A stretch of 64,000 bases of DNA, from positions 66,845,916-66,909,915 of the forward strand of contig CM049315.1 in NCBI GenBank assembly GCA_026874595.1, in the 5' to 3' direction. Every line of letters begins with the position of its first letter. Position 1 is the stretch's first letter. The notes beneath the pieces were generated by a model. The model did not search any database. It was not told the origin of the DNA and saw nothing but the letters and a program-made list of their open reading frames with translations. Made by a program: the position numbers and the translations under genes. Below, one piece after another: positions 11,641 to 59,230 of this stretch. This stretch comes from Sipunculus nudus. Taxonomy: Eukaryota; Annelida; Sipuncula; Golfingiida; Sipunculidae.

Positions 11641-12635
11641 GAGATAAGTAGATTATTATTGATGTATTGTCATGTGATTTCAGACCCTCAGGTATCTCAC
11701 AACACAAGCGCATGTTATATGTTTGGTTAATGTCATATGGTTGGTGATTTGATGCTAGTTGTTAACTATTAGGACACACTTAATGGCCTTTCATAATTGT
11801 CATTGTATTGTGCATGCACTTATGGAACCATGGTGATGTGGCCTTATATTTATAATAACATTATTCATTCATGAAACACAAGTGCAAAAAAATCAAACCT
11901 AAGCAGAGTATGCCTTTTCAACACAGTTCATCCAGAACAACGATTAACAATAAAAAAAAATCATGCACGCGGATCCAGCGGGAGATTTAAGGAGGCGTGA
12001 CACCCCATTCTTAATTCCACTGTCGAACACAAATAATTTTTTTAATTGTAAACTATACCCAAAAAAAAATTTCCTGGGACATTACTTCCCTTAATCTGAT
12101 AATTTATTCATCAAATCTGGCAGAAGACCGCAGACCAGTTGCAGATTTACTTTTACATTTTTTTTACGATTGCCCCCTTCATTGCGTGGTCCCCTCCCAT
12201 TCTCTTGCTTGTCATTATTAAATGTTCACTTTTTTAAATCATAATATATAATCTTACGAGATATTAGTGGAGTTCAATCATGAGACAGGCATGGAATCTT
12301 TTGAAACTTTGAATAAGCATATGACGGACAGATTGATATTTCAAAATGCCAAAACCTTCACGTTTGGTTTGGGATCCTGTATAATTAATTTATTTTCTGA
12401 CAGTTAAATGCACAAACAACAATTTGTCCTAAAATTGTTCGACTTAATTATAACGCATTTTTCTTTAGGGGTGACTTATGTATATAAACTAGTTTTATTG
12501 TTATTTTTTCTGTCGTAGAAAATATAAATACATGTATCGCATGTGCCTGTATGTCAGGATCAGTTACTCTTCGCAGTTGACCATTTCCGTTTTGACAAGC
12601 ACTGGTTCCCGCTGATTTTCTTATGTAATATACAA
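11641..12635. other. Gene-free spacer
   Basis: No coding or RNA signal recognised. AT-rich, with short homopolymer runs. Confidence 0.35.
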
Positions 12636-12750
12636 GGATTATATAATTAGTTATTATAACTAATTCGAGGCATTTTCCATGGGTCAGATGGTCACGTCCG
12701 AAATAGTCTGTACTGGTGAAGGAAACTGAAGGACCCTGAGAAAATAATTA
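12636..12750 (+). repeat. Short dispersed repeat (SINE-like), copy 1
   Basis: The stretch with CCATGGGTCAGATGG, AGTCTGTACTGGTGAAGGAA and ACTGAAGGACCCTGAGAAAA matches 26190-26290 in order and spacing. That copy has CCATGGCTCAGGTGATAGC and TCTGTATAGGTGGAGGAA. The 'GGAGGAAACCGGAGAACC' motif suggests a widely dispersed family. No clear polymerase III boxes were confirmed, so the SINE label is tentative. Confidence 0.4.
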
Positions 12751-13711
12751 TTATGATTATTTAAACATATTGCAAATACATAAAACTGAATACAATATGA
12801 AATAGAATCTAATGCAGGCTCGGTACAGTCAATAAAACAAAGAGATAATATCATATACGATAGCGGTGGGTGGTAGGTGAGGAGATATCTACCGCAAAAA
12901 AAAAATTTCGAAACCGCTGGGTGTAATTTAAAACCTCGTCAAGGCCCGGCACGCCGAACGCAGCGCGCGGCGATGCAAATACTTGTATACAAAATATGAC
13001 CACCCGGCATTTTGGCGACTCTGCAAAGCGCAGGAAACCATTTTTAGCTTTGCTTTTCAACGCTGCACAGCACTCCGCAGCGCAGTATTTGGAGTGGACA
13101 TTGATAATAAAAAAATTACATAAATGTAATTCACATTTTTTTCACAGTGCAGTGTTCGGTGTGGCAGGGCCTTTGGTATTAGGTTTCAGGTATTTGGTTT
13201 CTCGCACATCAGAAGGATTGAGTCTTCCGATAGAGGAATTGGAATTTATGAAGACATTTGAGTTTTTAAAGGAGGAAACGATGGGTTCAGTATATGATCT
13301 TGGAAATAGATAGTATGTGTCTGAACTATACGGGCTCTTCAACCGTTATTGAAAGTTGTTAAGGAGTAAGAATCATATATCTGGCGTAAATCAGTACAGA
13401 AGAATAGAAAGATTTATTCCTCCTCAGCAAAATTTATTGGATCAATTCAAACAATTTTCAGAATAGTGTATATCATTCTACTTAAATGTGTGTGTGTGAC
13501 AAGAATAATTGCAATAGTGCCGTGTTTACAACAAAGGCTGACATCTTAAAGAACCCATAATCATTTTGGCCATCAGAGACGGAATCGCTATGGGAGCTAC
13601 CTGAAGTTTTTGCTATTCCAGTATGGACCCTAATGTGTACATATTAGCAAAGTTGTGAAAACAACGCCTTTTCCTCTTATTTAAAGGGCGAAGTATTACG
13701 AAGATTGCGAC
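12751..13711. other. Upstream region of the TIR-STING-STING gene
   Basis: No convincing coding exon. A locally GC-richer stretch lies at about 12910-13090 with several GCGC and CAGCGC words. The region immediately 5' of the ATG at 13712 has no obvious TATA box. A 5' untranslated exon could lie here but cannot be identified by eye. Confidence 0.35.
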
Positions 13712-14144
13712 ATGGCGGAAGGCATCCTTCCCAAACTGGGGGGAAAAGTTGACTATCACGTTTTTATCGCGCACAGTAAAGAAGTCAAGAAAAAGATCAA
13801 ACAGAAATTCAGCGACACTCTTCGAAAAGAAGGATACAAAATATATGAGAAAAAGGCTTCGTTGCTGTGTTGGGAAAAGGGAACAGACGAAATAGGTGAC
13901 GCGATAAGCCACAGTCGCCGTACTATACTCGTCATCACCAAAGACTACATGAAGACTGAAGAGTTTAAGAGTGTGATCAACGAGGCTATTAACTGGTCTT
14001 ATAAGACAGAAAAACGGGTTTTGCTTCCCATTCTTGATGACGTCAACTTAAAGGAAGTGCCACGTCAGCTCAGAGTGATGCATACGTCATTCTATCAGAT
14101 GAACGATGAAAATCTGCTACGCCGCTTGAAACAGGGGATTGCAG
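13712..14144 (+). CDS. Exon 1: TIR domain of the TIR-STING-STING gene
   Basis: Encodes residues 1-144. Box 1 is YHVFIAHS (residues 15-22). The BB-loop region is CWEKGTDEIGDAI, where the common x-P-G is replaced by E-K-G. The strand TILVIT follows, then KSVINEAINW. The glutamate E91 in this segment aligns with the catalytic glutamate of NAD-cleaving TIR domains such as SARM1 (in DWVHKE). Box-3-like SFYQM precedes the exon end. The donor is GCAG|GTTGGT after g14144, phase 1. The open frame continues into the intron as a poly-leucine (CTA/CTT) artefact. Confidence 0.88.
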
Positions 14145-16937
14145 GTTGGTTTAAATCAATACTAGTACTACCACTACTACTACTACTACTACTACAACTG
14201 TTATTATTATTATTGTTATTATTATTACAATTCAAATCCAAACATGTTTATTTTGTTTGTTATCCAAATCATGTACACATTATTTCGTATAACGACCCCT
14301 GAATGAGTCTAAATGCAGCGAATGTACTAAATGGTACCTTAACAGGGCGCCTGAAAATGCAGTTATGTCATGGATGGCGTAAAATCAACATGACAATTTT
14401 GTTCAGATATAATAAATAATATAAGCTAATATGATAGAGCGTTTGGTCTAACAATGCGATCTTATTATCCAATTGTAGATGAAGTGTCTTTGATCACGGT
14501 CATGCCAGCTGGGAATATGGCTTATGGTCTCGCGTGGTCTTATTTCTATGGTTACCTTGGGCACTTGCTTCCCAGTGAGTATATTTTGGGTAATGGTATG
14601 TAAGTGTGTTATGGAGAGGAGCGGGGGTAGTGGTTTGCACGTAGCTACGACATGTAAATATTGCCTGCAAAGAGGAGAAAGCGCTAGTACGTCTGCGATA
14701 GGTCTTCAGAGGGTTAAATGGTCCACTGTCACAAGGTTAAGGTTAGCATTAACCTATAGTTGTCCCGGCTGTCTTTGTTTACCAATATTTATACTAGACG
14801 TAAATGGTCACACAGTATTTTATATGTTTTCTGTCTCAAGATCACACATCTATTTTGGAAAACATAGCAGCATACACTCATTAACCCAGAGCTCAAGCCT
14901 ATACGTATTTATATAGACACAAATGTGAACATTCCTCTTTATATCTCAATGACAAATATTCCGGGAAGATACTAGCGCTCACTCACCCATACGATCTCTA
15001 AAGAATTATATATCATATATAGACCAGCCCAGTCGATGCAGTGGTTAAGACTTTATAATTGCTCCCGCTGACAGAGCCATCAAACTAGTACCGCAACGCT
15101 TAAAACAGGTACTTTCACCTCGCGGCAATTTACATAACTAGTTCACGGCTCTCTGAACGTCCAGTGGTTGTGGGGCGGTCAGGGCCACAAATCACCGCCT
15201 CGCTGAACAATGGTCTTTTCCAGTGACGTCCGAAGTTATTGCGGTCTTTCCCAGAAATCACTCCAAACCAATGTGGTTCCTTCAGTCATCGCTTTTTGCG
15301 CGCTTCCAGTTGGATATTAAGTAGTATAATATGTGTTTTTATGTCATTAGGTCAATAGGTCCTCCCATATGTTGAGTCCGATATTCATTCGTTGAGAGTT
15401 CTTCAACGCTCTTCAAAGTTGGCTTGTTTAAAAAAAATGTCACAAAACCCTTACTCAACCTGTCAGCGTAGTTCCCAGTGAGGTGTGTTCTCTCCTGGTC
15501 ACCGGTCAGCTTTAAAAATGTAATACATTTAGCCGCTGGCTGAAATAGGGCAGTAGCATGGTTCCCATCCATGGTATTAAATAGTAACTACTGCGTGCAT
15601 ATGCAGATTATACATATTTCTCTGTCGTTGATGTTTCAGAATTAAAACAAAGGATTAAATCGTCAAAGCTCTGCTCAGAAGAATCCAAATTCCTGCCAAA
15701 GTTTGTCATCATTATCCCAGTGGATTGCTACTGCCCTGATTCTCTGACAGAAACAGATGAGCGATTCATCTTCGAGGACCACATCAAATACAAGGCAATG
15801 AGAGCCGGGATTGAGCGTGATTATAAAAGCACAGTCTATAGCATCACTGACCTAACCAACGCAAAGGTACTGTTAAAACACACAATGGTTATTATACAAA
15901 GATATATTATTACAAACACAAATTTAATAAAAGATGCTAATTTTGAAATAAACAGCATAGTAAAGAAACGAAGGCAAGCAGTATACCTGTTTTGCTAAAA
16001 AAAATAATAATTTTTGCACATATACACACATAATTATGGAATCATTATAGCTAATCCTGAACAAATGGGATATGCAGTTAACAAAATTAATATCAACAAG
16101 ATCGAATTGGGATATACATCGCTATCCTGCACGAGAAAAATATTCATTATCTCGGCATTTTATGATAACATATATTAGCAGTGGGACAGAATCGATTTTA
16201 GTAATTTTACTATGGTATACTTTGCAGTACTATTTAACGTGTGAGTTTGCCACGCCTCTTTTGACGTTATATGAAATGGCGCGTATCGAGGGTGCAGCGC
16301 GGCTGACAGAGGAACATCAGCGACACCAAAAGGAATTGTTTGTTGAAGTCCTGCGGGAGATTCTAGAACATCCAGAAAATCTGGGATGCAACGGAAAATG
16401 TATCATACTCGAGTACAATGGGTCGCTTGGTAAGTTTACGGGTGTCATCGGCACAAGGTATTACTGGTCCCTTAAGACGCATAAGAAACAACCTTCCTCT
16501 AAAACCTTATAGAAATTGAACCAATGGCATATATTGTGGAAGTATATAAACTGCATAAATGCATCAGAATTTTGTACCTGCAACATTAACGATTCAGGCA
16601 ATATCAATAGATTTTCGATAGATGTATGTTAAGCTGTAAAAATAAAAATAATTCCTGGAAGTTTTTTTCGAAAAAGTAAATATGATCAGTTCTAAATAGA
16701 ATGTAAATGAGGTAAAATGAAGAAAAATGTGAAATATAAAATTGACAAGTGTTTTAAATTCACATTTCCTATTGTTTGCAATTAGCTTTTCTTACCGTAA
16801 AGATGAGATAACAGGCTCGGCTATTTTCCTGTGTCGGCGACATAAATAAGAAAATTTTAATATTGAATGCAAAGAGACGTGAAAGGATTCCCTAGTATAT
16901 AAATTTTTCAGAATGTCATATATTTTTATATTTACTG

Positions 16938-16982
<45 letters not shown>

Positions 16983-19900
16983 GATATATATATAATATAT
17001 ATTCAATAAATATATATATGTGCATGAACTTTAATTTAAGTCGGGACAGAAGAGAATCCTACAGGTAAGTTCAGATACGCTATCAAGCTACATTACATAT
17101 ATACAGGGGTTTCAAAGATAATCTAACACCTTATCCCCTCAAGAAGTTATGTTAATAAATACAAAATTATATGTCAATTTTCCATAATAATGACGCATAT
17201 TCTGTACTCCGGGAAAAGCACGCATGCATGATCTAAGGCTTGTGTAAAAATACAGCAAAAAGGCTGCTTTATCAATGGCTCGTGATCATCATGATTTCCT
17301 CAATATAAGTACTAGGTCCCTATTCCATTTACAGACGGTACGCAATCTTATCATTTATTCAAACTCTACACCCGTTTTAATTATAAAATATGCATGCAAA
17401 ATATGCATGCCAAAGTATAAAGTACTGAAAACTAGCTCGCAAAACTATTATTCCCTGTTTTTGCTGTGAATGGTTATTTCCTATAGTTTATTTGGCCTTT
17501 GCATGGTCGGTTCAATGTTATGATAACTTTGACGCTTGCCTATTCATTTTTATACCGTATCCATTCCCTGAACAATACATATACCCCTATATTTGGACAA
17601 GTGATATGATATATAACAACATTAATATTTATTTCATGCAGATATCAAGTGTAAACAACCTTATTAATTGTAAATAACTGTCTTTACAGACCAGGATTTT
17701 GTTGATTTTGTTTTGGAAAAAATTAAAGAAGAATTGAAGGAAGAACATGAAGGTAATATATCTGTAAAAATGTTAATGTTTCATACACGTCATACACAAT
17801 GGGCTATAGATTTAAACGCAAGTCTCACTGGGATATATAAAACCAACATGTTTCACATGTGCTTAGCAAAATAACACTGACACGTGTTTAGCTCAGCGTA
17901 CATGTTAAGAAATTTTGATACGATGCAATTTCGCAATTTCCTATCACACCGTGATGTCACGTAATGAAAATAAAAATAACTATATATTCTTAAATCCACT
18001 TGTACGTAACCTGTCCAAGGTATGAGGATGGGCGGGCCTGTAACAAGTTAAAACCTTTCAACAGACATTTGGGGTCGACCCATTTGAACCAATATAATCG
18101 AAAACGATTATTGGGTCTGACCCATCTCGCCTTTTCTGACCAACCTTAGCATCGGTTACTTGGTTTAACCCATCTTAAGATGAGCTACTTAATATCCAAT
18201 ATATGTAATTTGGTCACACCTATCTTAAGATGGGCCAGATCGGAGGATGGCGGGCAACTTATGTCAAACATATGTCTGTTTGTCCGTTTGTTGCTTGCCG
18301 GAATTCTTCGGTTTCGGCAAGCATGTTGGTCGGATGCGTATGTCTGTTTAGCTGTTTGTCTGTCTGTCTGCACTCTACTGGCCACAATGTTTCACCAATC
18401 TCTTCCAAACTCACAAAGTTGATTGACAATCAAAAGTCCTAGAAGCGTTTTGTTTTGGTTAATATAGGTCTAAGGTCAAGGTCTTCGAAAAACTACAATA
18501 TAGTTTTTAGTTCAGCTGACTGGAAGTCATCTGAGCTATAGCGATCACTCGTCGTCCGTCCGTCCGTAAACCAGGCACAAACCGTAATCGCTGGACCTGG
18601 AATCTTCTAACTTGACATGCAGGGAGGTCAATGAACAATCTCCGTGGAAACCTGAAATAAAGTCTCTGTTACCCATATCGTTCGATAATGAAAAATATAA
18701 AAATCTAGTGTCTGAACAACCAATGGATTGATCACATTTTTTTGCATGCATATTGATCATGAAGATTATCATCATTTCCTGCAGACTGGTGGCGCCACCT
18801 GGATATTTCCTCATTTTCAGGCATTATTTAAACTATTTTTGAGACCATAAAAGGTACGGTCGACCGATAACCAGGCACAAATAGTAACCGCCAGACCTGT
18901 AATCGTCTAACCTTATATGCAGGGGGATCCATGGAAAATCTCCGTGGAAACCTGAAATTAGGTCTCTGTTACTCATATCCGTCGAGCTGTGGGGCTCAGA
19001 AATAACCCCCCCCCCCCCCCGAAATAATTAAAAATTTATACAAAAGCTACAGTATCTGAACAACTAATGCATTGATTACCATGATTCTTTGCATGCATTT
19101 TGATCATGGGGTGTATCATCAGTTCCTGCAGACTGATTGCGCCACCTAGATTTTTTCCCTAATTTTAACTCATTTTTTACTATTTTTGAGACCTTCGAAG
19201 ATGCAGACGTCAGTTAACAGGGTGCAAAACATAACAATTATACCTAGAATCTTCTAACTTGACATCCAGGGAGGTCCATGAAAAATGAGGTCTCTGTTAC
19301 CCACATCCTCTGAGCTATGCTTAAGTTGAATTGGGATAACACGTATAAAATTTAGCATTCAGATGATAAAATTCCTTTTGTTTATGTCTTCCTAGTCTGC
19401 TGAGCGTCATGACCCCTGGGTCACTTGTTTCTTCATAGTTTCGTCAAAAATCCTCGTAGCCTCATAAACTGTAGCTCATTTTTATTCGTCATTCGAAGTA
19501 GCGTCATATTGACCCTCTGGCATTACGACCAGATTACTAGCGCCAGAGTGTCATGACATCTACGTCTGAGGATCGCATTATAAGGCCTTATGAAGATGCA
19601 AATATTTTCGTCATTTCTGACAACGCTTCATGGGCTACAGGTACACTGTTAATCAACATAAACCAGACCATTCGATAGCATTTTTTGTGTACTTTCTCAT
19701 AATACCAAATATGAGCGAGAAACGTTCCTGTTTAACCGAGCACATTGGTAAACCCCTCGGCATGTTTGTTGAATTTGTGACCGCATGAACACAAGCACGG
19801 CTCGCACGGGTTACAGTGTAATGTACTAAGGCCAGTCTATTACTACAATTCGCACTCTCTGTATTTCATCATTATTATATATTATGTAAGTTGCAGGTGT

Positions 19901-22900
19901 TTAAGTTAATTGGGACTTTGTGTATTCAAATGTCAGAGCTGGGTTGCCAGGTATTTACATAATGACTGTAATTGCTTAGCCTTGATTACATGGCAACTCT
20001 ATTCAGTCTAATTGCACTTTCATTCAGCTCCTGTGCACACCTTTCTTTAATTGCATCTGTGGTGACACGTCAGGGAAATCTCTGATTGGTTTACTAATGG
20101 TGTATGAATAATGCTGGGAGAGAAGCGAGGTGTTGGGAGGCAGTTACAAACTGGGGGCCAAGCCCTAAACAGGGGCTCGGCATACCCTCTCCTTTATAGT
20201 TAAAATAAAGAATCTTTTACATCAACTGAGAGACTTGTAAGTTTGTCACCAGTGCATCCTGGACCAGGTTATAATCTCTACAATAGGACGCAGGCAACTT
20301 GCAGGCGACACAGGAAATGATCCGTGTCCATGTAGACGGTGTTTCAGTTTGGGTTGCGAGCTCACACATATACTATTGTGTTTATTTACCATTCCAAGCA
20401 TAATATTGAGATTATGGGCCGTTTTCCAAAATATGAATGCAACCAGATGCATGATCACTGCGATAATTCCTCCATATTACTAGTATCACGACTCGAGTAG
20501 GCTTACCAGCCCAATTATCCGATTGCCTACTGAGTCGGGTTGTCACGGCTACATTCGAAGGCCCTTTTTTTTCTGATGTGCAACTATCCCAAATCTGGGG
20601 AAAAGTCATGATATTCGAAAATATTTGGTCTTATTTTTCTAACTAGTTTTATGCATCAGGTAGCATTTAATTAGACTAGTTATACGCATCAGGAAGCATT
20701 TAATAAGCCTTATATGTTTCTAGTTTAATTCTCCCAATATGTCGCACAATATCTCTTCAAACGAGATTTTGGGAGATTTCATTCATGATACCCTGGAGGC
20801 CACAAGTTTGCAGGAATCCTATTGAAACTGATCTACCTTATGTCCTACATTAATATCTCGAAATGTTTTTTTTTTTTTTTAATATGGCGGCTAGGGGCGC
20901 TGCACTTTAAACACTACATGCAACATATCATTTTTCGTCCACATCTCCAAAACTATAAACCTTAGCTACAAAAAACTTAGATCATTTTGTTCCACTATAC
21001 CTTTTCCAAGAGATTATTTAGTCTTCTGTTTCCTCAGATGTGTCAATGTGTCAGTATGTATGTCTATTCATCCGTAACTACAAATTCGCCTCAATACTTT
21101 TGTCTGATATTTGAGACTCTAGAAGCCAGAATTTTCGAGCAATCACTCTGAATGTTATCCAGTTAATGGAACACCTAACGTTCTTATACCAATGGTCTAT
21201 CAGCATAAATAGGTCAAATTATAAGGTCAAGGTCATCTGCAAACCATAACATATTTTTTTTTGGCTTTGAATTTTTATCAAGATTCCTCACGGCCTCATA
21301 AACTCTAGCTCATGTTATACGTCATTCAATTGCCTTTCTTCTGATATGTAGCTGTCTCAATCTGTTGTTACAGTGGTTACGCATTTTTGAGAAAAATATG
21401 TGATATTCGATAAGCCAGAGAGGTCTTGTGTTTTTCATCAGGTAGCATTTAATAAGCCTTCCATGATTTAATGTTAAGTTTTGCGAAAACTTGTACCATT
21501 TCTCCTCAAACCAGATTTAGCGATATTTTAGTATTCTCGTCCTACAAGCCACAATACTTCACCAATCGCTCTAAAAGTTATCAGTAAATGAAAACTACAG
21601 GAATCCTTTTGTTTTTGGTTGAATTAGGTCAAAGTTCAAATCATCAAAAAACCTCAAAGTTTCCTCATAACTTTGAAAAATATTTTCCTGTCTTCACAAA
21701 TTATAGCTCATTTTGCTCCTCTATGCATTCCTTGTAATCTGTTCAATCTAAGTGTCATCCAGATTGTGTCAGTCTGTCAGTATGTCCGTCTGTTCGTCTG
21801 TTGTTGTCAGCTTTCTCTGCTTGCATGTTCTTTTGTCTGATATATATATCATCCTACAGGCTACAACTCAGCAATCGCTTTAAAAGTCATACAATTGATA
21901 GAAAACAGACAATATGTTCTGTCTGTTCGTCTGTTTGTCATTTCTATTTCCGACAATCGTTCGACCTATGGTCGTCTAGTTTAATTGTCCGTCGATTTTT
22001 TCAAACTTTGTCAAAATGTTTTGCATGCCTTAGGAAAGAATGCTATTGTTTTCTATGTGGCCATGGTTACGAGGGGGCCTTACAGCTAGAAAATCATGAT
22101 ATACCATTTAAGCGCGATTTTTCAGTTACTGTAAATAATATCTCAACTTTAAAGGCTGCATCTGAAACAATGATCCTAAGGCTTTCTTTTTGCCGACACG
22201 CGGTAATTTGTGCAGTAACCATGGTCGCAAATTTTGGGGTTAATTTATGAAAATTAAAAAAAGCGAGCCTCATCTTTTCGGTCTCGGTCACTTTTGACGC
22301 TAAAACGGTATAGTTTGCTGCCTACGATAGCATATTCACATTTTCATTGACACGGTTGTAAGTCTCTTCAAATATCGTCACATGTAGCGTGAAACGAGAA
22401 TATTCGAGATTTAGCAAAGGCGGCCTTTTGTGCTACAGAGGTGTATCTTCTGTATTGGTTTGTATTTTACAAGCAGCTTCCAGTGAAACTATTGCAAGTG
22501 TTGCTTATTTCGTCATGTGTCGCATCAAATGAGAATATGCGTCATTTGGCAAAAACGACCATTACTCGATCACTTTTTAGGCTATATAGGTAAACGTATA
22601 TCTGCATAGGATAACATTTGACACGTTTTCATAGACACAGTAGTAAGTCTCGTCAAATCTCGTCAGGTTTTGCGTCAAATGAGATTATGCGAGATTTGGC
22701 AAAACGATTATAACTCGATAACTTTTATTGCCAGAAAGGTCTAGTTTTCTTCGTTCGATAGCATTTTACAGGCAAATAGTGAAACTATATATTGCAAGTG
22801 TCATCAAATCTCGTAACGTTTAACATCAAACGCAAATAAGTGTGATTTGGCAATAAAATTTTATAATTCATACCTTTTCTATACCATTGTTCTAATTTTC

Positions 22901-24932
22901 TGTTACTTTGACAAAATTTCAGTTACTCAACTACAAGTTGTTTCAAATCTCCTGACATCTGCTGTCAAACGAGAATAAGCGAGATTTTTCAAAATACTTA
23001 AACTCGGTCATTTTTCATGCTAGAGAGGTCATATTTTCTGCTTTTGGAATCATTTGATAAGCTTACAGTGACTCAATTGCAAGTTGCAAGTCTGCTGTCA
23101 AACGAGAATGTCACTGGAATGCCATTAACTCGGTCATTTTTTATCTAGACAGGTCTAGTTTAGACCCATTCCTTTTTCAGCATTTCACTTGCTGTCAGTG
23201 ACCGGACTACAAGTCTTGTCATATTTCGCTACATCAGCCGTCAAACTATAAAAAGCGATATTTAACCAACATGCTCATAACTTTTCTGCTTGCTGTGACA
23301 TTTTATAAGCTCTACCTAATCTAGTCTCGTAAAATCTTGCCTGTTGACCAGATATGTGAATGCTATTGTGTCATCTACAGCTGTCTGCTGGAAAAGGCTG
23401 GCGACTGTGTCAGGATTACAGGATTTTTGTGTAGTAAAGATACGCAAACATTTAGATGAAATTCATCAATATTTTAAAAGGTCAAGTTATATTGCGTATT
23501 ACATCGTAGTTTGGTACTTTATTTCCGGTGTGGTCGAAGGTTTACGGTTTCCGAGTGATTTTCATTTTGTATCACATTTTAACTTTCAGAGCGTCCAATG
23601 GCTGACCCACGTTCTCTGTATACATATAAAGTACCAATTGGGAACGTTGCTTACGGCCTGGCTCACACCTACTTTCTTGGCTATCTGAAGCTGGTTTTGC
23701 CAGGTATGAAATACAATACACTGAATTATAATCAGAAGAATTTCCAGTTGATATTATGATACAATGTGAAAAAGCATATGAATAAGCACTCATGGAAATG
23801 TCCAGTTGTTTGTATCTCGTTCATCAATATTTGATTCACAATATGACAACTTTCCTCGCTGTTATGTTGGCTGTAAGCCTAGGACCCTGATGTCCCTGGT
23901 TTAAAGTAACAAACTGCCTTCTGCTAAGTAAACAGCTTGACCATTTCCTAGTCATAATCTTAGCTGTGCTGTTAGTTTATATATTGTTAGAAAGCTGAAT
24001 TGAATGTGATTATGAATAATCATGTATTGTTTTTAGAAAATGATCTAATATTTGTAAATACAGTAATAGAGCCCTTAGTAAGGAGAGTCTAAAGAATTTA
24101 ATATTGATGAGGTCGTAATTTGACAGTTTCCTTTGCCTTGCTGATATACGATTAATTGTATATGTAAAGTCACTGTGTAAGATTTAAACAACTACATTAA
24201 CTATTGAGTAACGATTCGGTTTTTAATTTCAGATCTGCAAAAGAAGGTACAGGTGCTTCCCATCTATCAAGCAAATCGAGACATGTTCTGTAATAAGCTG
24301 TTGCTTGTCATAACCCCTGATGGGTTCTGCTCAAAATCCTTCACGGATGCTGAAGAAACTTTCCGAAAGGAAGGTGAAATTCCCATCCAAAAGACACGTG
24401 CCGGAAACAAGAAGAGAAGCTTTAACATAACAGTTCTGAGCGTCACAGTAGACGAACAGGTAGAGTTACTATGACCTATATTCTCTTTAACATTCTAATT
24501 TTTAGTGTCACAGCAGAATTAGAGGTAGAGTTTGTATTACCTATATTCTATTTAACATTGCAGTTTTTAGCGTCACAGCAGACCAAGTGGTAGAGTTACT
24601 AAGACCTATATTCTTTTTAACGTTCCAGTTTTTAGAGTTACCATGACGGTCAGACCTATGATTTCATTCAAATCTATCATGCAACCAGCAGTTGTATATA
24701 CGTCAACTCCTGTAACTGACAATTTTCAAAATTCGTGGGGATGACTGGTAGTGAAAGGCTCTAGGTATTTCTCCGGTTCAATCCCGCCAGTCATGACACA
24801 AATGAAGATCAGATATTGTCTAAAATTCCTCAGTAAGTTGCCGTCATTATTTCTTCGTTATTCTCAGTTGCGTATCCAGGATTTGAAGATAGAGGGGGAG
24901 GTTGAATGATGGGGAGGTTTCTGGCAATTTTG

Positions 24933-25004
<72 letters not shown>

Positions 25005-28000
25005 CATACCCCACCTAGATATATAAATTGCTATGTGATATAATAGGTAGTAGAGTCCATTTCCAAACGATTGAGATTAAACTAAAATACGTTTTTGGTT
25101 ATGCCTTAAAGGTGAGAATCTTAATTTTAAGATAGCCCCTAGCATCTATCGATTCTAGATTTAAATAAAGGTTAAGACAATAAAAAATTGAATAGCCAAA
25201 CTTTTTTTCTATTATTCTCATTGTTTCAATCAAACTGGCAAAACGTTTCACTTCTGATTGTCAATGTATCCAGACATCGTCTCTTAAGATAAAAGAATAT
25301 TAAATTAAAATTGTAAATGTGTATTTGACAATTAGGGGAGTGTGGCTTTGCCTAACAGCGTGGTGGGCCACTTCCGACAGCTAGATATGTAACTGGACTG
25401 AGCACTGGGGTCCACTACTAGGTCATATAATTATCTTATAGAATATTCTAGAAATGTCAAGCCACTGCAAATTTGGTAATTTATCCTATAACCAGTGATG
25501 TTTGTGGTCTCCACCTTTTCTGGGCTTCAAAGATCAGACCAGGCTATTCTCAGTCAAATGGGCAAATTTAATTGAGAGAACTGTTCAAATGGTGAAAACT
25601 CTGTTAAACAAGTGTAAACAGTCTGGAGATGACCAAAACTGCTGAGTTATCGCAACATCCGCTAGATGGCGTCGCAAACTAAGATGTAGACTTTCAGCAA
25701 AGACAGGGCTACTGGAACCAGAAGTGACCACCAAACAAGCAGAGCTGCAGCTTAAGTAGAGACAGAAAAACTCAGAAATGTTATAATGACAAACGAGCCA
25801 GCAGAGAGAAACGTGATAAGAATATCGGAGACACTGTAAGATTCCGTTCCCACAAGGAAGAATGGAAATAAGGTGAAGTTTAGCAGAGAGTTCCACATTT
25901 GCCGCGTTGTTATTGGATACACGCTACGGATGGTAAAACATTGTGTAGAAATAGAGGTCAAATTTTCGGTACAAAAGAGCGGGTAACTGTGAGACAGAGA
26001 CCAAGCTTCACTCATATACCTGTTCTTCCAGCGAGTGAGACTTGAGTGAATTTACTCCGTGTTGATAGAGAGCTGCCAGAGCACACAGTCACACAGCACT
26101 ACAGCAGCAGTGAGATTCCGTCAGAGTCGTCGTCTAGCTGTTATAGTGTTATAAATATAAACATATTTTACATTGATTGTACAAATAGTTATTATAACTT
26201 ATCGCGGCACTCTCCATGGCTCAGGTGATAGCGTTCGGTAGTCTGTATAGGTGGAGGAAACCGGAGAACCAGGAAAAAACACCGGCCTTGGACGGACAAC
26301 AACCCACCACTCTCATAACTACACCATTAATGGTAATGTTACACCACCTTAGATAACAGATTACAACCAGATGTGGGAGAGAACATAGTTAACCTGAATC
26401 TGATTTTTTTTTCAAAGACTCTAAACACTTTTATTTTTTCTGTATGCACCGTTTATTTATTTGAATGTATAGTCCGACCGTATTACTTATCAGTAACCTA
26501 GAACACAATCCCCAAGGAAAACTTTGTCATGGACACTGCTCATACAGTTAAATAATCACAACCCTGCCATTTTTAGCTCCTTCTGTGAACTTATGCCATG
26601 GCGCAGCGTCCACTGTCCACTGTAAACTGTCCACTGTCCACCTTCTGTTACCAAATATCTCAACAGCCACAGCAGCTGCCTTCATGAAACTTTGCAGAAT
26701 TACTGATCATGGGATGATCATGCAAAAATAAGCTTTTGGTGGCGCCACCTTTGCTGACCTACTTTCTGTGGACCGAAATGGTCTTCTCCACTTCTTCCTA
26801 GATAAGTAATAAAGTGTTAATATTTTTTGCCTCCATATCAAAGTCAACAGTTCCTTAGAGGAAGGGGAATAATTTGAGTATAAATTCAGTCAAGTCACTT
26901 TCAAGATGGCGTCTCTATGGAACATCAAATTTTGTCGATTGCAAAATCTGACAACTTAATGTGTTTCCATTCAAGATGTATTGTCTGTTACCAATATTTC
27001 AGGAACTACTGCAGCCTTTAGTTTAAAATTTCACAGGAATATTGTTCATGTGACTGCTAAATGATTTTGACCTGCAGGTGGCGCCACCCGTGTTGACCTA
27101 CTATCTGCAGGCTGTAATGGTCTTTTCTGCTTTTTCCAAGATATGTCATAAAGTATTAATATTTTGGCTTTCTTATCCATAAGTAAATTATTGCTTAAAG
27201 GAAGAAGACTAAAATGAGCGTAAATTCAGACAAATTATTTTCAAGATGGCGTCTCTGTGGAACTTCAAATTTGTCGATCGCAAAATTTGACAGCTTGATT
27301 TGTTTCCATACATGTAAAGTCTGTTACCATATATCTTAGGAACTGCTAAATGATGTTATCCTCCAGGTGACCCACCTGTATTGAACTACTTTTTGCAGGC
27401 TGTAATGGTCTTTTGTTGTTACAAAGATATATCATAAAGTATTAATATTTTGGCTTTCATATCAAAGTTGTTCCCTCACTTATGTAGTTGTGCATAACAA
27501 TTAAAGACGGGTGCGCCACCTTCAATCCTTTCTGTGCAGTGCGAACCTGGGTGTCTTTTAGATAACAGCCCAAATCTCAGGAGTGGTTCCACGTATTGAG
27601 CCTCAATATTGCATGTCCATCAATCGGGGATCTCTCCATCTTGTAATCGAGACTTGTTGCGCCATTTACAATACATTTTGCTAAACGTCCATTAAGACAA
27701 AATTTGCCATATTTTTGTCTTAGTGGTTATTCAGATTATTGGGTTGAAATTGTGCAGTTCCATATATCCTCGACACCTCCATCTCGTTAACAGCTGGTGG
27801 CGCTGGCTGCAATCGTTTTCGCATGGGGTACATCGGTACATTTGCTGTGGATGAAAACTGCACTTATTGCAGGAGTGCTTAAATATATTGGTCTGAAATT
27901 TGGCATGTCCATCCATCTTGGAAAGTTATCTCGTAAACCAGACAGGTGGCGCCACATACTTTCCCGTTTTTGTAGAATAAATGATTGACCTTTTCTGAGG

Positions 28001-29551
28001 AGTGATTTGCCGTATTGGGCTGGAATTGTATATATCCATAGTTCTTGTACTCCTTCATCTTGTACTCAGGACTGGTGGTGCACTCTGCAAATATTTTCCG
28101 GTGACATCCATCCGTACATTTGCTGTGGATGAAAATTGCTCATATCTCATGATTGAATCAAGGTATTGGTCTGACATTTGGCAAGTCCATCTATCTTGGA
28201 AAGTTTTCTCAAAACCAGACAGGTGGCGCCACCTCCGTTCCTGTTATCGTAGAATAAATTAATGCCATTATTTGAGGAGGGATTTGCCGTATTGGCTTGA
28301 AATTGTGCATATTCAAAGATCTTGGACTCCATCTAGTACTCAAAACTGGTGGCACCATCTACAGTTGTTTTCCTGTGGCATTCATCCGTAGTCCTACATT
28401 TGCTGTGGGTGGAAATTAATCATATCTCAGAAGTGATTCAATGTATTGGTATGAAATTTGGCATGTGCATCCATGTTGAAAGGTTTTCTTGTAACCCAGA
28501 CAGGTGGCGCCACCTTCAATACTTTTTGCGTAGTGTCCATCTTTGTATTTGCCATCTGTTCGTCTTAGTGGTTGTTCAGTGTTTTGGAATGAAGTTATGC
28601 ATGTCCATCAATCCTTATCACCTCCATCTCATAAACAAGACGGTGGCGCCATCTGCATTCATTTTCCCGTGGCATCATTCCGTACATTTGCTTTGGGTTA
28701 AAATTACTCATATCTCAGAAGTATTGATCTGAAATTTGGCATGTGCATCCATCTTGGAAGGTTTTCTCGTAAACCAGACAGGTGGTGCCACTTACCTTGT
28801 GCAATAGGCAAGTGTCCATTTGGAGAGGAATGAATGGTATTTTCACATTCACTTTTTCCTTTCTTAAACACCTGCCATCGTGCACAGTAATTCACAGAGT
28901 GAACATTAGACCCCTGGGTCTCTTGTTTATATTAATTTTGTCTTAAAGCTTAAATACTTGGGAAGGGAGGTTTAATGTACTGACCTTTGACTTTTGTACT
29001 GACTCAGTGATCACCTTTGGTATGATCAAGAGTTTATATGGTTACGTTGGGTACGATCTCATGTGTAGGCCCTCCAGGTCAGTGGCCAATCAGGAATCAT
29101 GATTAAAGGCACACTTCCGCTGTCTACATGTTTTGTGTGTAGCCACTACAATAATAATTAATTTAATGTTTGAAAAATGTCTATGAATAATCATGATGTG
29201 TACACAATAATCCACTTCCAGTTTGTATGGCCACATGCTATATTGACAATGTCTACTGATACTTTGAAGATGTATGGCTTTTACAGAAATACTTCTGCTT
29301 GTGTGAGATTCCACCGCCCCTGCAGTGTTTGTATGACATGGAACAAGGCCGCATCGCTGGGTTAGATGAGGAAGATAAACAACGCCAGATTAAACTCTTC
29401 CAGGACACACTGGCACAAATTCTGGACGAAAACAAAGAATGTAGAGGAAAATATGCGATCATCACCTACAAATCTTCCTTGAGTAAGCGCAATCATATCT
29501 CAATACACAAACATTTTTTTAAATATGTGTGTTTTTTCCGTTTTTAGACAT

Positions 29552-29589
<38 letters not shown>

Positions 29590-29593
29590 TATA

Positions 29594-29626
<33 letters not shown>

Positions 29627-29958
29627 ATCGCATGTCTGGCATATTCAGTATAAAAGAAATTACGTGAAAAAGCCTAACAAAAAATTATCAGATATAAAAC
29701 TTACATAAAGTATGAACAACTACGAATCTAAATGTTAAGAAAGAGTACGTGTGAGACAAATATATATTTTAAAAAAATTTTCATCTACTGCAAGACTTTA
29801 ATTAAATAATCAAAAGCTGTTATTTTATTATAGAAACTCCAGCTAAAAGTCGAGACGTTGCTTTATCTCAACTGGTGATCAAACAAATAAAAAGGGACCT
29901 AGAACTTGCTGCTCTCCTGCGTTCGGACTCTAAGCCTGAGACTGAACAAACGCCATAG
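13712..29958 (+). CDS. TIR-STING-STING fusion: innate immune cyclic-dinucleotide sensor with two STING domains
   Basis: Nine exons join in frame: 13712-14144, 14479-14574, 15640-15866, 16228-16429, 17690-17752, 23590-23703, 24233-24459, 29287-29482 and 29834-29958. They sum to 1683 nt, 560 residues plus TAG, with GT-AG at every junction. Residues about 14-144 form a TIR domain. About 150-319 and 351-519 are two successive STING cyclic-dinucleotide-binding domains. Residues 320-340 and 520-560 are helical/charged segments. Start: ATG at 13712 in good context (GCGACATGG). Family knowledge: STING binds cyclic dinucleotides such as 2'3'-cGAMP, and TIR-STING fusions occur in bacteria and in oyster. 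Seen: no transmembrane helices and no vertebrate-type C-terminal tail (pLxIS/TBK1 motif). Inference: a soluble sensor signalling through TIR. The second STING domain is the unusual part. Exon boundaries are by eye; a transcript would settle them. Confidence 0.9.
14479..16429 (+). CDS. Exons 2-4: first STING ligand-binding domain
   Basis: Exon 2 (14479-14574) encodes AYGLAWSYFYGYL, matching human AHGLAWSYYIGYL around S162-Y167. Exon 3 (15640-15866) encodes the core strands (FVIIIPVDC) and RAGIERDY, matching human RAGIKDRVY with R232, R238 and Y240 retained after a one-residue gap. Exon 4 (16228-16429) encodes CEFATPLLTLYEMAR, matching human LEYATPLQTLFAMSQ with E260 and T263 retained. Donors are CCCA|GTGAGT, AAAG|GTACTG and CTTG|GTAAGT. 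Acceptors are TTGTAG, TTTCAG and TTGCAG. All pocket positions checked are compatible with cyclic-dinucleotide binding. Confidence 0.9.
16941..16979. repeat. (AT)n microsatellite in intron 4
   Basis: Uninterrupted AT run, followed by a looser AT-rich stretch to about 17022. Confidence 0.95.
17690..17752 (+). CDS. Exon 5: helical linker between the two STING domains
   Basis: A 63-nt exon encoding DQDFVDFVLEKIKEELKEEH (residues 320-339), a strongly charged probable helix. Acceptor TTTACAG|AC, donor GAAG|GTAATA, both phase 1. Its sequence resembles the LSQLVIKQIKRDLE segment of exon 9. It therefore looks like the terminal helix of the first STING module turned into a linker by duplication. Confidence 0.82.
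18050..18245. repeat. Short degenerate repeats in intron 5
   Basis: Recurring variants of 'GGTCTGACCCATCT', 'GGTTTAACCCATCTTAAGATG' and 'GGTCACACCTATCTTAAGATG' at roughly 55-bp spacing. Confidence 0.5.
18540..19340. repeat. Tandem array, about 300-bp units, in intron 5
   Basis: Three diverged units start near 18570, 18865 and 19200. Each contains '(AA)CCAGGCACAAA', 'TCTTCTAACTTGACATGCAGGGAGG', 'CTCCGTGGAAACCTGAAAT' and 'TGAACAACCAATGGATTGATCA' equivalents. The first two also carry CCTGCAGACTG followed by a variant of GTGGCGCCACCT. A C-run interrupts near 19005. Confidence 0.75.
19485..20555. repeat. Dispersed repeat with internal insertion (relative of 38940-39530)
   Basis: Similarity to 38940-39260 covers 'GCGTCATATTGACCCTCTGG' through 'CACGGGTTACA'. 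Similarity to 39255-39530 resumes at 20285 ('GACGCAGGCAACTTGCAGG') and ends at GTTGTCACGGCTAC. About 460 bp in between are present only in this copy. The shared right end contains an imperfect hairpin, GACTCGAGTAGGC ... GCCTACTGAGTC. No coding capacity. Confidence 0.75.
22090..23300. repeat. Degenerate tandem array (about 170-190-bp units) in intron 5
   Basis: Units recur with variants of 'AAGTCTCGTCAAATCTCGTCA', 'GTCAAACGAGAATAAGCGAGATTT' and 'AACTCGGTCATTTTT...CTAGAGAGGTC' near 22255, 22380, 22530, 22660, 22815, 22960 and 23095. They are well diverged and have no open frame longer than expected by chance. Confidence 0.65.
23590..29482 (+). CDS. Exons 6-8: second STING ligand-binding domain
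   Basis: Exon 6 (23590-23703) encodes AYGLAHTYFLGYLKL, matching human AHGLAWSYYIGYLRL. S162 is T and W161 is H, while G166 and Y167 are kept. Exon 7 (24233-24459) encodes the core (LLLVITPDG) and RAGNKKRSF, aligned without gaps to human RAGIKDRVY. R232 and R238 are kept; Y240 is F. Exon 8 (29287-29482) encodes CEIPPPLQCLYDM; E260 is kept but T263 becomes P. Donors are CCAG|GTATGA, ACAG|GTAGAG and TTGA|GTAAGC. Acceptors are TTTCAG, TTTCAG and TTACAG. The fold is clearly STING, but the pocket differs from canonical cGAMP binding. The exon pattern mirrors exons 2-4, including a 227-nt middle exon in both. Confidence 0.88.
24421..24640 (+). repeat. 65-bp tandem repeat spanning the exon 7 splice donor
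   Basis: Units begin at 24421, 24486, 24551 and 24616, exactly 65 bp apart, each with TTTAAC...GTCACAG. The first unit includes the last 39 bases of exon 7 and its donor GT at 24460. The second and third carry the same GGTAGAG donor-like sequence at 24525 and 24590. The repeat therefore grew from coding sequence plus splice site. Confidence 0.9.
24934..25002. repeat. (AT)n microsatellite in intron 7
   Basis: TA-rich dinucleotide run interrupted by one AAA. Confidence 0.93.
26190..26300 (+). repeat. Short dispersed repeat (SINE-like), copy 2
   Basis: Carries CCATGGCTCAGGTGATAGC, GTCTGTATAGGTGGAGGAAA and CCGGAGAACCAGG, co-linear with 12655-12745. It lies inside intron 7 of the STING gene. Confidence 0.45.
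26580..28920. repeat. Degenerate tandem array with GGTGGCGCC core in intron 7
   Basis: Units repeat 'TTTGCTGTGG(AT/GT)...AAA...CATATCTCA...GGCATGTCCATC(C/T)ATCTTGGAA...CCAGACAGGTGGCGCCACC'. The palindromic core or a near variant appears near 26738, 27077, 27796, 27946, 28223, 28338, 28501, 28642 and 28781. It resembles the cores of the two Helitron/pearl-like elements but lacks their ends. It is probably an expanded or decayed relative. Confidence 0.75.
29555..29628. repeat. TA/GTAT microsatellite in intron 8
   Basis: TA run passing into ATGT tetranucleotides. Confidence 0.92.
29834..29958 (+). CDS. Exon 9: C-terminal helix and end of TIR-STING-STING
   Basis: Acceptor TTATAG|AA, phase 1. 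Encodes residues 520-560, with LSQLVIKQIKRDLELAALL as a probable helix and an acidic, proline-containing end (PETEQTP) before TAG at 29956-29958. No TBK1-binding (PLPLRTD) or pLxIS-type motif of vertebrate STING tails is visible. Confidence 0.82.
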
Positions 29959-31303
29959 AAATAGAAACCCGGTGTCAAGAGGGGACAGAGTTGAAAGTAG
30001 GAACCGCAGGGATCAGGTTATCTCCGATGAAAAAAAGTCCAAAGGTGCACTCCAACACTACAGGGTTTGAAACTGATTGAAAGTCAGTGCAGTTAATAGA
30101 CACTCAAGAAACTCTTAATGTGAGTCAAAGTCTATTAGAACATACATAGAGAAGCTGATGGCTGGAGTATGTGCGCTCGTCTTATATGAATAATTAGGCT
30201 TGGATTCAAGATGAGAGACTGAGTGAACGTTTATTGCAACTGATACTCCGGAACAATTTCTGAAGGCTTCTTGTTTTTAAGACACTTATGGAGATTATTG
30301 CTTGGTTATTTCGGTTCTTTTGGAGAGATGGAGGTGTGAGCAGTATTGTCTCAGAAAGAAGACTAAGTGCTAGACCAGGGATCACGGTAACAACTAAGCA
30401 ATCCCTTATGATTTTAGGTTTCTAGATTGGTCAACTTGGAATTAATGTCCCTCTCAAATGTGGGGCTACAATGACCGTTCCTTGATTGTGAAATTTCAGC
30501 CGTGGATGTTACAGCTGGTAACGTCAAATGCCCTTCTGCTTGCTACTTCATGTTCTCGCATTTATCCATGGATTACGTAAAGAAGTGTCATCCCACAGAC
30601 CACAGTCAATTAAATCCCTATTTGTGGGTGTGATTTTATCGAGAAATGGACGAAACTATATGCACTAGACAAGTATATGGTCTTGCCTTACGTAGTATTG
30701 CATGCCGAGAATTTGGACAACGCCGCCCCGGCTGATATCTCTCCCGCCTGAACATGAACTTCGGTTTTTCAGCATTAATCTTTAATTTTTCTTTGAAAAG
30801 CAATATGATATTCCGTACCACCCTTTTACTAACGTCTCATTTCACGGTATACAGAAATTACCCAACTTTAATTCGCATTGAGACCGTTTCCTGGGTTACC
30901 GGCACCATTGTTGACCTTGACCTTGTCCATCCTGGGCTGATTATTATAATTTATGGTTTAACTATTATTAAGGGTTATAAGTACAAATAATACTGTCTTC
31001 CACGATAAATGACAGTGAAAAATACGCGCAATTAATGTCCGGCTATAAAAACATGACCACTATTCAGACTGACTTTGATAAACAGATACACGTGTTTCAT
31101 CAATCAGCCGTTACACTTGAATGGACGATTGAAGTTCGTTTAATGAGCAGATGACGCCAATTTGAAGCATGGCTTTAGATCATACCAAAGTGGTCGCTTG
31201 GTAGGATACAGTGGTACAAAATTAAATGATTGAAATTGTCTTTTAATTGATTATTGATATTGTAAAATTGCATGAATGACCAAATGACTTGGAGTAGAAT
31301 AAA
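29959..31303 (+). other. Putative 3' untranslated region of TIR-STING-STING
   Basis: No further coding exon was seen after the stop. The first exact AATAAA on the plus strand that I found is at 31298-31303. An ATTAAA variant lies near 30608. The true cleavage site is unknown. Confidence 0.35.
31298..31303 (+). terminator. Candidate polyadenylation signal (AATAAA)
   Basis: AATAAA about 1.34 kb past the stop of the TIR-STING-STING gene. It is the first exact hexamer I noticed. Assignment is positional only. Confidence 0.3.
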
Positions 31304-32112
31304 AGGTAAGTTTTGTTATAATGTGTTTTGGAAAACAGTTATATTATTGTGTTGCCCGCCCCGACCATATACATTCTTTATTATTTGTTAAATGCGTACT
31401 CAGGTAACATGTATCATTAAAGATGTGCCCAAAACACGCATTTGCACTATGCTCTATCGCTTTCTTCCTATTTCCCCTAAAATGAGGATTCAAGCGACAG
31501 TGGTTAGACGGGTCGATTTTTTTCTATCCCATTTGAAAGGTTGCCAGAGAGACGGGTCCCAGTTAGACGGTGCCCATTCAGACGCTTTATTAATATCCTA
31601 AGGTTTACAGATATGACGAAGGATAATCAAAGCATAATATTTCATATATAGCATTTTGAATATAAATATGTTTATATATTTAACAATATGAAACTTCCAA
31701 AAGCATGCACGGTTGATTGACATATGTGCAAGCACTAACTTACCTTGCAATATGATGGGTGCTTTGTTGTCTGTTTGTCTTCATGTCATATTATTTTCAG
31801 TATATGACGTCGTTGTTAAATCTACACTGGTATTTGGTACGACAAGTAACGAGATGTCATCACTAATCAAGTCCACACTTTTCTTTGCAATGCGTACTGT
31901 ACTAAAATATGCGTTGCTTGTTTGTTGGTATCGTTCATATCGCCATATAATAATTGTTGTGTTCTTTATTCGAATGCCAAGTTACGTGTTCAGTCAATAA
32001 AATATGAGTTGTTAATTCAAAATTTTTCATATTATCCTTTAATAAATATTTTTGAGTTATAGAATTATAGGACTTTCACGGACGTGTATTATAGCTAGCC
32101 TTTTAATTTATT

Positions 32113-35891: not shown

Positions 35892-37931
35892 TCAGAAAAA
35901 GGTGGGTGGTCTAAATGCCCTCTGCAGTAAAGACCTCATGAAAAGTTCCTTTAAAAATTCAGCGGCAGCGTCTACATCATCATCTTCCTCCGAGTCATCT
36001 TCATCACTGCTCCATTCAGATTCATCCAGTCTCTCGCCGTGGGACATGGCTTCCAAAGCCTCCTCTTTCCATTCCTTTTTGAATGCTCGTAGTAGCCTTT
36101 GGATCTGGTTTGGGCTGAACAAACATTCTCCCATGCTGTCCTCGCATGATGCTTCATCTAGAAGGTCCAGGAAGCGGGATCTTACCAACTGAATGACGGT
36201 CTGCACCGGCTGTACACGAGTTGGAAATGGCGGCACTTCTGTAAGCTCTTTCGTGAAAGGATTGTACACTCCCATATCCAAGAAACCAGCCTTCTTCTCT
36301 GCGTACGACAGATAAATATCCCCTTTCGTTTTCCCACACCGCTTTCCTGAACAGTCTCGTGCTGATCTGTTTGGCTGATCTTTGGGAAACTGTCTCAGCT
36401 CCCACGAATTTTCATTTATCTTATATACCAGGGCATTTTTTCTCAACTTTATCAACATTTCATCTGCAGTGCCTAAAATATCCAAATCGTCAAGATTCGC
36501 AAGAAGTGCTCGCAGAGGAATATTTTCAGGAGGACTTGCTAACTGTTTAAGGCGCCCAGATGATGGTGTCAAGTGCCAGATGAGTAGCTTTGCTTGGTCT
36601 CTGACAGAGAAAAAGTAGGCGGTCCCGTCCAGACGGTAAACAGCCCGGAAGTAATTGGAGACTCCCCCAGGTTCAGCTGCACTTTCACAGAAAGGCTTCC
36701 AGCGACGTTTTTCCATATCAAAAAGATCGATGCAGAATTTCCACATTTTCTTACCGCCCAGAGCGTTCGCAAACCACGCTTGTCTTCCCCGTTGATCCCC
36801 CTGTTTAGATCCTTTGGGCTGATTCTTTTGTAGGAACAAGTATTCACGTAGGAAATACAGTTGACCATCGGTGAAGCATATAGGAGTGTGAATACATCTC
36901 CTCTGCTCCTCACCAAAACCAGGCTCCTGGTAGATACGTGGAAGGTCGATGACTTCCTTGCTGAATATGTTCACCAAGATGTACTTGTGCCATGCAGTAG
37001 GAACACATATATACTCTGCTGAGGCACCCAGTCCAAAAATGTATATATCTATTTCAGGTACATGAGCTTTGACCTCTTCTGGGACCTTCACTTGCAGCCA
37101 CATCTTCTTTTCCGGTCGGTAGATAAGATACAGGCCCGTATGTTCATTTTCATAGTAGAATATTTCTTCCAAAGTCTCCCCCGTGGTTTCATCAAGACCT
37201 GAGGGTTTCTCGTCAGTCTTGGATCGAGAACTCGAGGCTTCGGCAATGTCATCGGGCAGACCTGCTACTTTTCTAAGTTTGCCAAGGAACGGTGTTCTGC
37301 TCGATTCATCCTTTTCGCACCACAGCTGAAAGAACTTTTCAAGTTTATCTTTTGTGCAAAACTTTCCCAACCCTTGATCAAGGAAATACAAGAGGTGTTT
37401 TGGTTTAACCTCAAGTGCCTGTTTGCTCATGATCAGGGTATCATGGAAACGACTTCGAGCAAGTTCCTTGGACACATGTTCAAGTGCCTCTATTGAGAGC
37501 TCATAGCTGACTGCCCAAATCCACAAAGCATTGCCAAGATTCATCTGCTTCAGCAAGAAGTACACGCAGCTTTCTTTTAAGTCAGTCATCTCGAAGAATC
37601 TGGCTACTTGAAAAATACCTTGTACTTCATCTTTGGTGATCTTGATCTCGCCATGATAGATGAACTCCAGCACAGCAGCCACTGACTTAATGGACTCAGT
37701 TTTGCCAGATAAGTCGACTTCTTTTGGCCAGGACCTGACATTCTTTGGAAAGGTCCTTCTAATATAAGGACACATGGCGGCTAGGACACACCGATGGGCG
37801 AGCTTCTTCTCCTCCCCCACTTTGAGAGTGACATCACAGTGCTCTGATCGGTCGTACTGCTGACGCAACACCTCCGTCAAATCTTTTCGTTTTCTGGATG
37901 GTGCTGATTCTTCGTGTTCTCTCCTGCGCTG
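35892..37931 (-). CDS. BTB-BACK protein with degenerate kelch-like propeller (5' exon missing)
   Basis: One open exon of 2040 nt encodes 679 residues to the stop. Residues about 18-125 form a BTB/POZ domain (EHCDVTLKVGE, AHRCVLAAMCPYI, VLEFIYHGEI). About 130-235 form a BACK-like helical region. About 280-590 contain repeated beta-strand segments (IYIFGLGASAEYI, KMWKFCIDLF, LLIWHLTPSSG, DIYLSYAEKKAG) that look like a kelch-type propeller without the usual double-glycine signature. An acidic tail (SSDEDDSEEDDDVDAAAE) precedes the end. A strong acceptor (TTCTTTCCTGTTGTTTTCCAG) sits just before 37931 and no ATG lies in frame upstream, so a 5' exon carrying the start is required; I could not identify it. 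Family knowledge: BTB-BACK-kelch proteins act as substrate adaptors for cullin-3 ligases. The substrate is unknown. Confidence 0.85.
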   Translation of the reverse strand, partial: QRRREHEESAPSRKRKDLTEVLRQQYDRSEHCDVTLKVGEEKKLAHRCVLAAMCPYIRRTFPKNVRSWPKEVDLSGKTESIKSVAAVLEFIYHGEIKITKDEVQGIFQVARFFEMTDLKESCVYFLLKQMNLGNALWIWAVSYELSIEALEHVSKELARSRFHDTLIMSKQALEVKPKHLLYFLDQGLGKFCTKDKLEKFFQLWCEKDESSRTPFLGKLRKVAGLPDDIAEASSSRSKTDEKPSGLDETTGETLEEIFYYENEHTGLYLIYRPEKKMWLQVKVPEEVKAHVPEIDIYIFGLGASAEYICVPTAWHKYILVNIFSKEVIDLPRIYQEPGFGEEQRRCIHTPICFTDGQLYFLREYLFLQKNQPKGSKQGDQRGRQAWFANALGGKKMWKFCIDLFDMEKRRWKPFCESAAEPGGVSNYFRAVYRLDGTAYFFSVRDQAKLLIWHLTPSSGRLKQLASPPENIPLRALLANLDDLDILGTADEMLIKLRKNALVYKINENSWELRQFPKDQPNRSARDCSGKRCGKTKGDIYLSYAEKKAGFLDMGVYNPFTKELTEVPPFPTRVQPVQTVIQLVRSRFLDLLDEASCEDSMGECLFSPNQIQRLLRAFKKEWKEEALEAMSHGERLDESEWSSDEDDSEEDDDVDAAAEFLKELFMRSLLQRAFRPPTFF

Positions 37932-38678
37932 CTGGAAAACAACAGGAAAGAAAAACAGAATATCAACAGAAGCTGACAAGTACGAAATATGTTCTCACAT
38001 GGATGTATGTCTGTACATATCTCTAGATCAAGTCATAAATTTAAACTACCGATGTAAGTATCTTTGCAAGTCTCGTAATAGAAGTGATATCGATCTACCC
38101 TCTGTAGGGGATTACCTGTTAAACAAGATGTCCTTAGCAACACGAGAGAGCACAAAAGACCCATTTTTTAAATTACCAAGGATATGTTGTACATTTTCCC
38201 TGAAATAATGAAGCACCCAAGTTTAATTCGATTTAGATATCCCGCCCACAAGGCAAAAGTTAAAAGCGACAAAATAAGATAAAAGGGCACCAATCTACTG
38301 GTGCAGAAATCAAAGATAATTAAAGCCAATTTTCAGATTATATTTCATAACGATATGTTGAGTGGTTCCTAGGAAAGATTGATTTTAATAAATAGCTCTG
38401 TACTTTAAAAAGTAGGTGAATGTAACCCATCTTCTAACATGACCGAGATTTTGTTGATATGCATCTGCCATAAACAATTCAGTATATGTGTTGAATTCTT
38501 TTTTAAATATCCCGCTCGCAAACATAAAAAACGATAAAAATCCAGATAGTGTAGGTGCCACCACCGACCTCCCGAAGCATTAACAGATCATCATGGCCAA
38601 TAATCGACACCCAGTGATTCCTGTGAAATTTCCGGATTGCTATAATTTACCTCAAAATTCACATTTGCTTGAAGTGGA

Positions 38679-59157: not shown

Positions 59158-59230
59158 CCTTTTATTTGAGAGTGTGGTCCTTGAAGCAGGAGGTGCATTG
59201 TTCTGTCCCCTCCAGAGCCTCAAAAGTAAT

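Follow-up and report, generated by a model that had tools for sequence, protein, structure and literature searches.

A candidate gene for a TIR-STING-STING protein with two unlike STING modules in Sipunculus nudus

A single gene at 13712-29958 of the window (the whole 64,000-nucleotide stretch of Sipunculus nudus DNA analysed here) probably encodes a soluble, 560-residue protein in which a TIR domain is followed by two STING ligand-binding domains. With splicing as predicted, the gene would consist of a five-exon TIR-STING gene plus a second STING cassette. Provided that exon 5 is joined to exon 6, the best reading is that this tandem sensor with two unlike modules represents a new variant of animal TIR-STING. 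Animal TIR-STING proteins with a single STING domain are known and are called rare in passages of two papers (PMC10732462, PMC6723221), and the animal fusion is thought, in a passage of the first, to be independent of the bacterial one (PMC10732462). Phrase searches of the open-access literature, a scope outside which most subscription journals fall, did not find a tandem TIR-STING-STING protein. The wording "two STING domains" was considered as a possible precedent and set aside, as in the passages where it occurs it does not mean a tandem.

The nine canonically spliced exons and the 560-residue frame that an earlier note on this DNA had described were all present in the sequence. All eight introns have GT-AG borders, and the joined frame of 1,683 nt contains a lone stop, at its end. 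The exons lie on the plus strand. Exon 1 (13712-14144) contains the start codon and the complete TIR domain, as indicated by the frame and by Pfam matches to TIR_2 and TIR, with valine at the glutamate column of that domain. STING module 1 begins in exon 2 (14479-14574; splice sites, frame and STING_LBD match) and continues through exon 3 (15640-15866), which carries the equivalents of R238 and Y240, and exon 4 (16228-16429), which carries those of E260 and T263 (frame, Pfam and pocket alignment for both). Its last helix is encoded by exon 5 (17690-17752), identified by the frame and by comparison with a duplicate of the locus, with a phase 1 donor at its end. Intron 5 (17753-23589, plus strand), 5,837 bases long, separates the two STING cassettes. 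Module 2 begins in exon 6 (23590-23703; frame and Pfam), which has an in-frame ATG at 23598, and continues through exon 7 (24233-24459), where R238 is kept and Y240 is replaced by F, and exon 8 (29287-29482), where E260 is kept and T263 is replaced by P (again frame, Pfam and pocket alignment). Exon 9 (29834-29958; frame and paralogue comparison) encodes the last helix of module 2 and the stop. A 65-bp unit repeated 3.3 times (24421-24635) starts within exon 7, at its 3' end, extends into intron 7 and partly copies the exon 7 end and donor region inside that intron.

Pfam analysis of the 560-residue protein bore out the proposed domain content, with a single TIR and, behind it, two distinct STING ligand-binding domains. 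Both STING modules passed the curated cut-off individually (STING_LBD, E = 2.4e-39 for module 1 and 3.6e-36 for module 2), and the TIR domain was detected in the whole protein by TIR_2 (1.5e-10) and TIR (5.5e-7). The nearest solved chain for the TIR and module 1 together was the oyster (Crassostrea gigas) TIR-STING 6wt6/6wt7 (E = 6.3e-32, residues 13-340), and the best structural-chain matches for module 2 were 8ydn and 6wt6. The interval between the Pfam-defined STING modules was 25 residues (334-358). A simple hydropathy scan, as distinct from a dedicated predictor, found no transmembrane stretch in the 560-residue protein, the highest 19-residue mean being 1.17. AlphaFold gave a poor model for the exon 1 product by itself (mean pLDDT 46.6).

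The genome (1.43 Gb in 153 contigs) was searched with module 1, the TIR, module 2, PF15009 and another animal STING, and the same places were recovered. Three further TIR-STING loci were detected, at 64.65-64.72 Mb of contig C10, to which the window belongs, and at 9.375-9.387 Mb and, on the opposite strand, 9.394-9.400 Mb of contig C16. All three have five exons, one for the TIR, three for STING and a terminal one that carries a stop, and exon-end phases of 1, 1, 0 and 1 when the exons are joined by coordinates. Pfam found one TIR and one STING_LBD in each, a broken copy having been scanned as two pieces. Exon order and phases are common to the window gene and all three loci, which places the window gene among the animal TIR-STING genes; unlike it, the three loci have one STING cassette, a stop in a terminal exon 5 and an intact TIR glutamate column. 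The C16 copy at 9.375 Mb (C16:9374843-9387460) looks broken: an in-frame stop interrupts its TIR exon, and exon 4 is followed by GG in place of GT. A copy that looks intact lies tail to tail with it, and their exon blocks are 83-87% identical. Two near-identical TIR-exon fragments with stops, at 72.886 and 73.591 Mb of C10 (about 705 kb apart), match window positions 13217-14030 and represent either a segmental duplication or an assembly duplicate.

The window gene agrees with oyster TIR-STING, and with animal TIR-STING fusions in general, in having an N-terminal TIR and a STING ligand-binding domain toward the C-terminus. However, the oyster protein has a single STING, as animal TIR-STING proteins have exactly one per chain, whereas two are encoded here in one predicted open frame. 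Canonical transmembrane STING shares the ligand-binding domain with the window protein, which differs from it in having an N-terminal TIR and in lacking a transmembrane stretch. A separate transmembrane STING was not seen in the genome with either PF15009 (15 matches) or the 8ydn STING (14 matches) as query, all matches falling within the same five loci; this absence weighs little because the PF15009 search missed exon 7 of the window gene, and a gene with short exons could escape in the same way.

Exons 1-8 of the window gene end in phases 1, 1, 0, 1, 1, 1, 0 and 1, in that order; because the series 1, 1, 0, 1 recurs at exons 5-8, the cassette of exons 2-5 is repeated as exons 6-9. Exon 3 and exon 7 have the same length, 227 nt. 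Exon 9 corresponds to the family terminal exon, with the stop at its end, and exon 5 matches the same helix but ends at a donor instead. This donor fits the consensus at seven of nine positions (the other donors at five to seven), the exon 6 acceptor has 12 pyrimidines in 17 positions, and the acceptor is in the same phase as the donor. The same arrangement would permit other products. Since the donors of exons 1, 4 and 5 are all in phase 1, as are the acceptors of exons 2 and 6, joins from any of the former to either of the latter are all in frame. Alternative use of the cassettes, with exon 1 joined to exon 2 or to exon 6 and the same TIR carrying either STING module or both, is accordingly a reading we regard as rather unlikely but the best of the competing ones. 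It agrees with the family terminal exon being exon 9, but exon 5 runs into a conserved donor, where it lacks a stop, so a product with module 1 only would need a read-through end.

Evidence on whether exon 5 is internal came from C10c, at 74.19 Mb of contig C10, an old duplicate of this locus that is no longer intact. Blocks of C10c match window positions 12292-19820 and 30492-32000 at 68-87% identity. Exons 3-5 are recognisable in it, exon 3 carrying stops, and no match to window exons 1, 2 or 6-9 was found in C10c. Within exon 5, 58 of 63 bases are identical between the two copies, as are all of the next ten, which form the donor; over the other 112 bases downstream, up to the first in-frame stop, identity drops to 76/112, comparable to nearby stretches of intron 4 (193/252 and 52/71). 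By Fisher's test, exon 5 differed from the following stretch (p = 0.00018) and the following stretch did not differ from intron 4 (p = 0.11), with segment borders taken from the exon model and the counting done after the raw alignment had been viewed. Other exons of this pair are less sharply bounded (174/217 for exon 3 and 165/202 for exon 4, vs. 67 to 80% in intron stretches). Because conservation stops at the donor and then falls to the level of introns, exon 5 looks like an internal exon that already ended at its donor before the C10c duplication.

The internal character of exon 5 is evidence against the presence of two genes, namely a TIR-STING gene of exons 1-5 read through to a stop at 17872-17874 and a separate gene for a soluble, STING-only protein starting at the exon 6 ATG. 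Several features are compatible with such a pair: read-through of exon 5 would add 40 residues before the stop, an AATAAA motif lies at 17969, about 95 bases past that stop, and the ATG at 23598 precedes the region alignable to exon 2 by two codons and has the "MAD" context in which other members start. Transmembrane-less STING forms also occur in oyster, according to a passage of PMC5869526. However, intron 5 showed no excess of poly(A) signals (four AATAAA motifs vs. 3.67 in shuffled sequence), and the acceptor of exon 6 is in phase with the exon 5 donor. We consider two genes unlikely. The proposal of one TIR-STING-STING gene is partly supported, by the open frame, the repeated phases and the conservation of exon 5 up to its donor; the join of exon 5 to exon 6 is beyond the reach of C10c, which is silent on the splice partner of exon 5 because it has no exon 6-9 region.

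The two modules of this predicted single protein have diverged strongly. They are 36% identical to each other, and the single-STING paralogues are 48-51% identical to module 1 and 40-43% identical to module 2. An assembly artefact or haplotype duplication was rejected, since modules only 36% identical are not a recent assembly duplicate and module 2 reaches no more than 67% identity elsewhere over any exon. In trees, module 2 sits on a long branch. Constraining modules 1 and 2 to group together was rejected when C10c was in the set (p = 0.0002), as expected because C10c is module 1's own copy, and was not rejected when C10c and oyster were left out (p = 0.235). Module 2 may have arisen by internal duplication or by fusion of the gene with a neighbour.

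The ligand pocket was compared by alignment, Y167, Y240 and T263 being taken by us as the human STING numbering of pocket positions. Module 1 has S162, Y167, R238, Y240 and T263, and keeps the ligand pocket; binding of a cyclic dinucleotide is predicted from these residues. Module 2 keeps Y167, R232, R238 and E260 and is changed at four positions (W161H, S162T, Y240F and T263P). S162 and R238 are listed among universal or specificity-setting STING positions in a passage of PMC9980059. Seven other STINGs agree at 23 columns, and module 2 departs from them at six, compared with zero to four departures for each of the seven (the count omits the C10c copy); module 2 may for that reason be degenerate. 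It is thus conceivable, though we doubt it, that module 2 is a decaying leftover, translated or skipped, that binds no ligand while module 1 alone works. The altered columns, which include W161 and Y240, and the change of T263 to proline fit such decay; against it stand the four retained pocket residues, the lack of S162 and T263 in oyster 6wt6 as well, and the length of the frame. The 219 codons of module 2 contain no stop or frame break, and a stop-free run of that length would arise with a probability of about 4e-6 if stops were as frequent as in the gene's own introns (802 of 14,548 triplets, homology not counted).

The TIR domain was aligned with those of the three paralogues, oyster 6wt6 and two bacterial TIRs. 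The window gene encodes valine where six of the six, the oyster protein included, have glutamate, in the column that we take to be the catalytic one of TIR, and glutamate where four of the six have tryptophan. Because the glutamate column reads valine, the TIR of the window gene is probably a scaffold and not an NAD-cleaving enzyme, as judged from sequence. The TIR glutamate column is absent from the same gene that has two sensors, which suggests a split between enzymatic and scaffold forms among TIR-STINGs. The bacterial CBASS TIR-STING (Cap12) resembles the window gene in its fusion of TIR to STING and in the working model of TIR clustering driven by ligand, but differs in that its TIR, according to passages of three papers, cleaves NAD by means of a catalytic glutamate (PMC13142454, PMC9402430, PMC12421889), a residue named for bacterial TIR-STING in the first of them (PMC13142454). 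As described in parts of the other two, ligand-bound bacterial STING dimers stack and gather the TIR domains (PMC9402430, PMC12421889). When a TIR-containing STING was knocked down in oyster, interferon-like signalling fell, as stated in a passage of PMC8218723. A second TIR exon in intron 5 was also considered and rejected, as tblastn and a profile search found none there or elsewhere in the window; the profile scan has little power on short exons, the genuine exon 5 reaching only E = 0.28 and a chance-level match at 62616-62750 reaching 0.11.

STING is treated as a homodimer that holds one ligand between two equal subunits. The ancestor of the window gene would have been a five-exon animal TIR-STING gene, with a TIR exon and a four-exon STING cassette bordered by phase 1 introns; internal duplication, or fusion with the gene next to it, would then have added another cassette of four exons behind the first. 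A cyclic dinucleotide made by one of many cGAS-like enzymes encoded in this genome would bind module 1. Module 2, on its linker of about 25 residues, would by our first choice pair with module 1 of the same chain and form an asymmetric pocket, which is feasible because a stretch of this length between the modules would allow it; at about even odds, it would instead pair with another chain and produce cross-linked dimers. Ligand binding would then cluster the TIR domains into a scaffold that recruits other TIR proteins. A covalent pseudo-dimer is possible, as is a filament. The fullest version, which we put forward tentatively, is a single-chain STING in which two unlike modules pair to form an asymmetric pocket for an asymmetric cyclic dinucleotide, the output is a non-catalytic TIR, and in-frame splicing could present either module alone.

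If true, a naturally occurring chain that combines two different STING modules would make it possible to learn how the halves of the ligand are matched to the halves of the pocket, and whether the receptors of asymmetric messengers are themselves asymmetric. At least 69 matches to Mab-21/cGAS-like domains were detected in the genome vs. STING at only five loci, and repetition of the sensor within a gene would be one way to widen the receptor set. A profile (A2) run on viral contigs and prokaryotic genome contigs gave 76 and 40 pattern matches, respectively, none of which was confirmed by tblastn, an outcome that has no bearing on other animals.

Reading frames with BTB/POZ domains flank the TIR-STING-STING gene on both sides (35895-37994 and 3425-4012, minus strand), and a carboxylesterase gene (PF00135) is represented by two exon-like stretches at 54901-55823 on the minus strand. 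A 36-bp minisatellite with 88 copies and 99% matches occupies 55988-59156 and adjoins an array of a 30-bp unit repeated 8.5 times (59229-59486); the minisatellite region is open in several frames and yields repeat open reading frames of more than 1,000 residues.
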